From Bdellovibrionales bacterium (lineage in GTDB: Bacteria > Bdellovibrionota > Bdellovibrionia > Bdellovibrionales > UBA1609), in contig JAHDFM010000002.1 in the NCBI GenBank assembly GCA_020628165.1, forward strand, positions 118,818-155,170: a DNA stretch of 36,353 nt, written 5' to 3'. The position numbers were made by a program, and so were the translations under genes. Positions 10,713 through 11,808 of this stretch are shown here, one piece after another. Numbering within the stretch: position 1 is the first letter of the stretch; each line of letters begins with the position of its first letter. The notes under the pieces were generated by a model that saw only the letters and a list, made by a program, of their open reading frames with translations, did no database searches and was not told where the DNA came from.

Positions 10713-10797
10713 GCCCATGTGGTGGAATTGGCAGACACGCTAGACTTAGGATCTAGTGCCGAAAGGCGTGGGGGTTCGACTCCCTCCATGGGCACCA
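10713..10797 (+). tRNA. tRNA-Leu (anticodon UAG)
   Basis: 85 nt including an encoded CCA end. The acceptor arm GCCCATG pairs with CATGGGC over 7 bp. The D arm contains the usual TGGC. The anticodon stem CTAGA/TCTAG encloses a 7-nt loop with TAG at its centre, reading CUA (and by wobble CUN) codons. A long variable arm (TGCCGAAAGGCG), as expected for tRNA-Leu, precedes a T arm with GGTTCGA. All four arms are intact. Confidence 0.97.
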
Positions 10798-10850
10798 ACG
10801 GTGCATCAAAAATGTCCAGTGGACAATTTTGATGCACCGTTTGTTTTTTT
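10797..10850 (+). terminator. Strong intrinsic terminator of tRNA-Leu
   Basis: Starting at the last base of the tRNA, a stem of about 21 bp forms. The left arm is AACGGTGCATC continuing to GTCC, and the right arm is GGAC continuing to GATGCACCGTT, with one mismatch and the 3-nt loop AGT. It is followed by TTGTTTTTTT. Its tip (CC-AGT-GG) is the same as the tip of hairpins in the repeats that follow. Confidence 0.85.
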
Positions 10851-10876
10851 AAGAACCCATAGTAAAGCGAAGCTTT

Positions 10877-11027
10877 ACGTTAGGGTTCTAAAAAAAATCA
10901 GAGCACGAAAGTGCGATCAACCAACCAAGCAAATCAAAAAACTGCCAGTGGCAGTTTTTAAGCCCAAAATCAAAGCCAAAAACTAAGAAAACTCCCAGGA
11001 ACAGCACGAAGGAAAAATTTTGAATCC
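10877..11027. repeat. Direct repeat, copy 1 (151 bp)
   Basis: Aligns without gaps to 11112-11262 with about a dozen substitutions (about 92% identity by eye). It contains a GCAC-GAAA-GTGC tetraloop hairpin (10903-10914). It also has a perfect hairpin AAAAACTGCC/GGCAGTTTTT with loop AGT (10937-10959), which looks like a two-way terminator because the stem has A-run and T-run ends. Confidence 0.88.
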
Positions 11028-11111
11028 ACACTGTCCAATGGGGACAGCACGTCTTAAAAATTTATTAAAAAATTATCGCCTAACATAAACCCTATGGGTT
11101 TATTACGGCTA

Positions 11112-11262
11112 ACGTTAGGGTTCTAAAAAAAATCAGAGCACGAAAGTGCGATCAAGCAACTAAGCAAATCAAAAAACTGCCAGTGGCAGTTTTTAAGGCT
11201 TAAATCAAAGCCAGAAACCAAGAAAAATCTCAAGAACACCAAGAAGGAAAAATTTTGAATCC
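11112..11262. repeat. Direct repeat, copy 2 (151 bp)
   Basis: Second copy, exactly 235 bp downstream of copy 1. The first 44 bp and the hairpin block are identical to copy 1; the changes fall mostly in the A-rich linkers. Hairpins lie at 11138-11149 (GCAC/GTGC) and 11172-11194 (CTGCC/GGCAG). The sequence before the copy also forms a hairpin, but of different sequence, so the fold is kept while the bases differ. Confidence 0.88.
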
Positions 11263-11373
11263 GTACAGTCTGAAGTTGTGATCAAACAAGAATACTAAAT
11301 TTTTTAGAAATTCTTCCAATAGAAGATAAAAAATAAATTTAAGTTTCTTAAATTTTTCAGGAGGAGAGAAAAG

Positions 11374-11808
11374 ATGAAAAAAGTATTTTTGAGTGTGTTT
11401 ATTTTTTTGGGGTTTACTCATATGGCCTTTGGTTACAACTGCAAAGTCGATTTAGTGGTTAACCATGGTTACGGTCAGCCTTATGCTAAAGAGTTGTGTT
11501 CTTTGAGTGACTGTGCCTTTGACCTTGTGTTGAACCAGGGCTATGGCCAAGCCTATGCCAATGAAATTTGTGAAGTTCCACCTGGCATAAGTCAAAGTTG
11601 CACAGTCGACTTGGTGGTGAATCATGGTTACGGAGATGCTTACGCACAAGAGCTCTGTGCTTTGGACGACTGTGCTTTTAATTTGGTCGTTAACAACAAT
11701 TATGAGGACGACTACGCCAAAGAGCTTTGTGCACTCAGCAGTTGCGCTTATGACTTAGTGATCAATCATGGCTATGGCCAAAGTTACGCCAAGGAGCTTT
11801 GTGATTAG
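11374..11808 (+). CDS. Secreted five-repeat cysteine protein
   Basis: 144 residues with a signal peptide (MKKVFLSVFIFLGFTHMAFG). The mature protein is five copies of a unit of about 24 residues with consensus C-x-[VF]DLVVNHGYGQxYAKELC. The two Cys of each unit are exactly 19 residues apart in all five copies (23/42, 47/66, 76/95, 100/119, 124/143), which suggests one disulfide per unit. Unit 4 is the most diverged (NNNYEDDYAKELC), and units 2 and 3 are separated by an extra Pro-containing linker. A strong site (AGGAGGAG, 11359-11366) precedes the ATG, with a 9-bp hairpin just upstream. Function is unknown; an extracellular or periplasmic binding or structural role is possible. Confidence 0.85.
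   Translation: MKKVFLSVFIFLGFTHMAFGYNCKVDLVVNHGYGQPYAKELCSLSDCAFDLVLNQGYGQAYANEICEVPPGISQSCTVDLVVNHGYGDAYAQELCALDDCAFNLVVNNNYEDDYAKELCALSSCAYDLVINHGYGQSYAKELCD

Follow-up and report, generated by a model that had tools for sequence, protein, structure and literature searches.

Two hairpin-rich repeats lie downstream of a tRNA-Leu gene in a Bdellovibrionales bacterium, and a preliminary description of the sequence left the choice between a pair of sibling small RNAs and a repeat family seeded next to a tRNA. What are these repeats, and how did they come to this place? We analyzed them within a window of 36,353 nucleotides (contig JAHDFM010000002.1, positions 118,818 to 155,170; positions below are those of the window unless a locus is named), and we searched the 3.19 Mb genome from which the window comes (G000) by BLASTN and with covariance models, R1 for a single hairpin (A) and R2 for a two-hairpin unit.

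The locus downstream of tRNA-Leu

We found that the repeats begin 3' of the terminator-like palindrome and T run of tRNA-Leu (Table 1). The two copies are gap-free, 159 nt long each, identical at 144/159 positions (91%) and 235 bp apart from start to start, as first described apart from a small correction to the length, which had been given as 151 bp. The GAAA-tetraloop hairpin (C) and the A-run/T-run hairpin (D, bidirectional) that had been reported are indeed present in both copies. The hairpins that precede the two copies were said to be alike in form and unlike in sequence (GTAAAGC/GCTTTAC versus ATAAACCC/GGGTTTAT), which we also see, and to this we add that they are one type of hairpin on opposite strands, the first on the plus strand and the second on the minus strand. 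On the minus strand, hairpin A is followed by a hairpin of ~50 nt, B. The R1 match of the plus-strand hairpin A (G000:C4:129671-129704) and the R2 match that covers the minus-strand A-B unit (11011-11113, 81.6 bits) are both members of the training sets of their models. A tandem duplication of the full 235 bp was considered and rejected, as past position ~11270 the tail scores 24 against a shuffle mean of 23.5. After the tRNA-Leu terminator, the locus combines an A-B unit on the minus strand with A-C-D units on the plus strand into a mosaic, of which one stretch of 159 nt occurs twice.

Table 1. Positions of the tRNA gene, the repeat copies and their hairpins in the window (., no strand assigned)
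Feature	Position	Strand	Evidence or remark
tRNA-Leu, upstream of the repeats	10713-10797	+	ARAGORN; Rfam RF00005, 57.4 bits
Terminator-like palindrome of tRNA-Leu, then T run	10794-10851	+	Inverted repeat I1, 25 nt arms
Hairpin A, CCC ATA GTAAAGC GAA GCTTTAC GTTA GGG	10854-10887	+	R1 match, 50.1 bits
First repeat copy (right half of A, hairpins C and D, flank of B)	10877-11035	+	
Hairpin C, first copy, GCAC GAAA GTGC	10903-10914	+	Read in sequence; folds
Hairpin D, first copy, AAAAACTGCC AGT GGCAGTTTTT	10937-10959	.	Terminator-like on minus strand
Hairpin B of minus-strand element, core GTCC CCATT GGAC	11015-11063	-	R2 match; DNA fold
Hairpin A of minus-strand element, GCC GTA ATAAACCC ATA GGGTTTAT GTTA GGC	11078-11109	-	R1 and R2 matches; fold
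Second repeat copy	11112-11270	+	
Hairpin C, second copy	11138-11149	+	Read in sequence; folds
Hairpin D, second copy	11172-11194	.	Inverted repeat; fold; terminator-like scan

The two copies fold better than dinucleotide shuffles (z of –3.5 and –4.7), each holds a terminator-like hairpin D, and no credible ORF was found within the repeat, in agreement with the first reading of the locus. The folding and the terminator-like hairpins would suit two sibling small RNAs with genes 3' of tRNA-Leu; however, a sigma-70 type scan returned 0 promoter-like sites where 2.6 were expected, there was no Rfam match, the repeat is missing at the orthologous tRNA-Leu in two congeners, and its parts are common to elements at unrelated loci. 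These results make sibling small RNAs very improbable. At 11374-11808, a 144-aa ORF begins with a signal-like stretch and carries five repeats of a motif like NHGYGQ.YAKELC with paired cysteines; we found no Pfam or NCBIfam match for it.

Distribution and fold of the repeat family

A genome-wide BLASTN search for copy number, which had been suggested as a check, found related stretches on contigs 39, 20 and 27 of the window's genome. On contig 39 the copy follows a tRNA-Met with the layout A-C-D-A, on contig 20 there are several A-B copies in both orientations, and on contig 27 an A-B copy lies directly 3' of a flagellin gene (downstream of this element, at L011 6998-7708, is a gene for a lysine/alanine-rich histone H1-like protein). 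This gives 8 copies at 4 places, and R1 recovers these eight hairpins, all of which belonged to its training set, and no others in this genome.

To place the family among relatives, we searched 141 genomes of the order, among them three congeners: G021 (MAG CALLBC01, uncultured Bdellovibrionales), a third species (G020, 64% complete) and a fourth (G019). R1 found nine further copies in G021, and R2 gave at least 111 matches in G021 (a lower bound, with 150 candidates scored), 11 in G020 and 8 in the window's genome. In G019, R2 gave 0 matches at E ≤ 0.05, and in the order-wide search, which used stricter filters, the 137 genomes outside the four congeners gave no match, leaving only three species with the repeat. 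The 138 genomes without a match are also a negative control for the model. Within these 141 genomes the repeat family, first posited from two copies, is confined to one genus. A GTDB pattern scan returned CALLBC01 as the only related match, the rest being unrelated. A phage origin was considered and set aside, since a pattern scan of viral contigs returned unrelated matches only. In another genus (G034), L025 holds at ~1501-1535 a weak match made of ~55-bp tandem repeats with a similar hairpin, AAACCCAAAGGGTTT, within a long reading frame.

An Rfam search of the repeats and loci matched no family for the repeats and returned only tRNAs and one 6S RNA elsewhere in a locus (L126 692-855, minus strand, in G020; RF00013, 60.6 bits; ~400 bp from an element). 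We found no description of the repeat family in Rfam or in the papers searched, which is weak evidence as to novelty, and none of a repeat family of this sort in Bdellovibrionales in those papers. What we describe is a previously unlisted family of short folded repeats that occupies more than 100 places in one related bacterium.

Across the family, copies lie in intergenic DNA in both orientations, and the usual unit is hairpin A followed by the ~50-nt hairpin B, often with a second, locus-identical A and sometimes in tandem (A-B)n arrays with a period of ~100 nt. Hairpin A has an outer stem GCCC/GGGC, a conserved asymmetric inner loop (e.g. GTA/GTTA), an inner stem and often a GNA triloop, and hairpin B is a stem of ~22 bp, in which the mismatches are fixed, capped by a 5-nt loop. 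The hairpin A of a copy's own locus appears again after B in 43/97 copies (0 in a shuffled control), and this second A is mostly identical over 25 nt within a locus while A varies among loci. For several copies in G021 (L087, L088, L092, L093, L095, L099), the element lies within the loop of a larger palindrome. The outer arms are complementary over ~35-45 bp and specific to each locus, as though the flank had been duplicated in inverted form; in most of these palindromes a common part, CCATGAGnTCACGAAGTGACTCATGGtggctggcgcat, lies 5' of the element.

The earlier suggestion that the repeats conserve their fold rather than their sequence was borne out by covariation. In a MAFFT alignment of 12 units, made from sequence only, 89% of cells pair, 19/33 pairs are double-changed, and there are 62 doubly changed cells against 19.6 ± 3.5 in shuffles, a number that drops to 10-17 when the partner is slid by 1-3 columns. 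Among 97 distinct copies, 33/33 pairs are double-changed with 579 doubly changed cells against 156 ± 14 in shuffles, in an alignment that was fitted to the model and so leans toward structure. Taken together, these very strong signals of covariation strongly support a fold that is kept while its sequence changes. In the paired columns, G.T exceeds A.C (20 vs 8 in the MAFFT alignment and 173 vs 42 in the model alignment), which is suggestive of the A-to-B strand as the folding strand, with the reservation that the searches themselves favor G.U. When hairpin A loops were scored, we found GNA triloops in 33/69 and ANA in 15/69. GNA triloops with a C-G closing pair form unusually stable DNA mini-hairpins, and the GNA frequency fits single-stranded DNA, although RNA is compatible as well.

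Sites of the copies and gene ends

We read the gene context from the stretches around the matches. At letters 2-5, the unit reads TTAG in 65/98 copies and TTAA in 11/98. Because the fifth base pairs in the outer stem, we assign TTA to the flank and count the unit from the G or A that comes next. In 16/77 lead copies, this TTAG provides the stop codon for an ORF of ≥100 aa, as compared to 9/749 intergenic TTAG sites in the same loci, an excess at stop codons of ~17-fold. If the elements simply avoided coding sequence, a smaller excess would be expected; either target choice or retention at 3' ends must contribute as well.

The ends of individual genes illustrate this. The aquaporin gene ends in DPKG* with an element at the stop codon in both the window's genome and G021, in G020 it ends in DPEG* with a bare TAA, and in G019 it has no element; the C-terminus DPxG* is unchanged in three species, and the elements at the stop in two species have differing hairpin sequences. 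An endonuclease-like gene ends in HKTQK-TAA without an element in the window's genome and in SKKKD-TAG with an element in G021, with equal C-terminal length. It follows that the native end of the protein is kept. In two species, elements also occupy corresponding neighborhoods, with a 149-aa gene on one side and a HutI-like gene on the other (L010 7955-8057 and L143 1262-1361), and these may be old shared insertions or hot spots.

The compensatory changes in the stems, the one-strand G.T excess (which fits RNA), the stop-codon excess and the aquaporin stop position shared by two species whose hairpins differ would all accord with cis-acting mRNA 3'-end elements, that is, 3' UTR hairpins that protect or process transcripts and are held by selection at gene ends. 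In contrast to this expectation, 19/74 clusters are antisense to both neighbors (by a simple ORF caller), several G020 copies adjoin, from upstream, the ribosome-binding sites of divergent genes on the other strand (CTAAGGAG, with the TTA flank within it on the other strand), the whole congener G019 is without elements at the threshold given above, and no T run follows hairpin A or B on the A-to-B strand. We therefore regard a role at mRNA 3' ends as possible but unlikely.

At the window locus, gcvH-tRNA-Leu synteny is kept in G019 and G021 (L147, L148), and in neither is there a repeat after the tRNA-Leu. As the repeat is missing in both comparable relatives, the window repeat is most simply a species-specific addition. 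The idea that the repeats were seeded next to a tRNA holds for 2/4 loci in the window's genome and fails in the relatives, where 60 loci contain 2 tRNAs, neither of them adjacent, and targeting of tRNAs was rejected on this ground.

No general target duplication was seen in the flanks, where empty sites are too diverged to compare at the nucleotide level, and one locus (L123) has a duplicated flank. These flanks bear on a reverse-transcribed mobile element, whose transcript would fold as A-B-A. Sites that are frequently just 3' of stops would place its copies in read-through transcripts, and the G.T excess and compensatory change fit an RNA intermediate; however, the flanks show neither a poly-A tail nor a general target duplication, and such an element is improbable.

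A candidate mobile element and its relation to known systems

The reading that we favor, with a probability of about 0.6, is that the window contains a mosaic built from a mobile repeat of REP/MITE-like kind, non-autonomous and restricted to one genus. One strand of the unit would fold when single-stranded, a trans-acting enzyme would recognize its hairpins, and the unit would be joined 3' of a TTA. The most plausible enzyme would be an HUH/Y1 transposase of the IS200/IS605-TnpAREP superfamily; movement, a single-stranded DNA intermediate and a Y1 enzyme as its agent are inferred. As G or A is the first base of the unit, a stop codon would remain after it lands on T-TAA or T-TAG, and insertion would be harmless. 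Hairpins near the ends of the element, on one strand, are bound by IS200/IS605 enzymes, which use a fixed left-end flank, and the substrates of TnpAREP are REP hairpins that are single-stranded and contain mismatches (PMC6006769, PMC8266576); the repeats resemble such substrates in form. In favor of this reading we count the dispersed copies, their restriction to one genus, the kept fold, the strand asymmetry, the second A after B, the TTAG sites at stop codons, the presence and absence among species at the tRNA-Leu, aquaporin and endonuclease-like sites, and the G020 copies beside ribosome-binding sites. Against it stand the aquaporin stop and the 149-aa gene/HutI-like neighborhood, each occupied in two species, and neither a transposition event nor a polymorphism among strains was seen. 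The shared occupied sites could reflect long retention for a function.

To look for an enzyme, we took Y1 genes first from PF01797 matches in four genomes (G000, G019, G020 and G021). These matches gave a RAYT-like Y1 gene for G000, G020 and G021 and none for G019, an apparent co-occurrence with the element; this link was dropped because NF047646, the better model, finds RAYT-like genes in 29/47 genomes of the family, one of them G019, which lacks the element. In the three genomes with elements, the Y1 genes carry other inverted repeats and have no R2 element within 1.5 kb. No autonomous IS with the same ends was found among the PF01797-matching genes of the four genomes, and no recurrent protein family was found beside the copies. 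L014 carries at 1453-2100 a Y1 transposase gene of RAYT-like type, which scores 58 bits with NF047646 (under the cut-off of 80) and is flanked by its own inverted repeat, AAGGTGGTCCG..TGCGAAAC, and similar genes with GGTACC-type repeats occur in G020 and G021.

Like REP sequences and their TnpAREP-RAYT systems, the repeats have many intergenic copies in tandem or doublet layouts, and they are imperfect palindromes with a conserved mismatch and complementary stem changes among copies (PMC3733652, PMC8266576, PMC6006769). The combination of high copy number, intergenic position and palindromic form that marks REP sequences is found here, with the G021 matches. Unlike REP sequences of 20-40 nt, the units are ~100-140 nt long, with two hairpin types and a second, direct A after B. 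The foot of the hairpin lacks the conserved unpaired GTAG or CGTC of tagged REP sequences (GTAG in the GTAAGC subtype sits inside the outer stem, and others have GTAT, GTAA, GAGA or GAAG), and no RAYT gene was found beside the copies. On account of the foot and the missing adjacent enzyme we do not file the family as REP.

IS200/IS605-derived MITEs, such as the haloarchaeal PATEs, may share with the repeats one-strand hairpins (to which the G.T over A.C asymmetry would point), direct-repeat hairpins toward both ends (A on both sides of B in 43/97 copies), a short fixed left flank (here TTA, in most copies) and no general target duplication seen. They differ in that no autonomous parent with the same ends was found for our family, its right boundary is not fixed, and the middle hairpin B is no known part of such MITE ends.

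BOX elements of Streptococcus pneumoniae are built from modules, one of which is repeated in tandem; they form stable stem-loops and number more than 100 copies. Our repeats share these general traits; however, modules and sequence differ, and here hairpin A stands on both sides of B.

In integron attC/VCR arrays, each site is an imperfect palindrome of ~100 nt, whose stems vary and whose boxes are conserved. Integron-like recombination sites, with attC-like hairpins in arrays, would account for the similar size (~100 bp), variable stems, tandem arrays, GTTAGGC boxes and single-strand folding seen here. However, the 5' box GTTAGCC(C) differs from the RYYYAAC inverse core required for pairing with GTTRRRY, so that it lacks the complementarity to the 3' box, GTTAGG(G)C, that attC cores have, and on direct reading the arrays contain no ORF cassettes. 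We give this explanation almost no credence.

More tentatively than for the mobile repeat as such, and with an enzyme linked to no known repeat family, this may be a new mobile A-B-A hairpin element, both of whose hairpins are maintained by compensatory change, that lands after TTA and occurs preferentially right at stop codons, where a functional stop remains; we consider this reading possible but unlikely. Small palindromic repeats are common in bacteria, and their spread and selection are poorly known. The repeat family has more than 100 copies in one genome; two congeners carry smaller sets, and a further one has none. Its structural covariation and sharp tie to stop codons make target choice, strand and retention directly testable in Bdellovibrionales.
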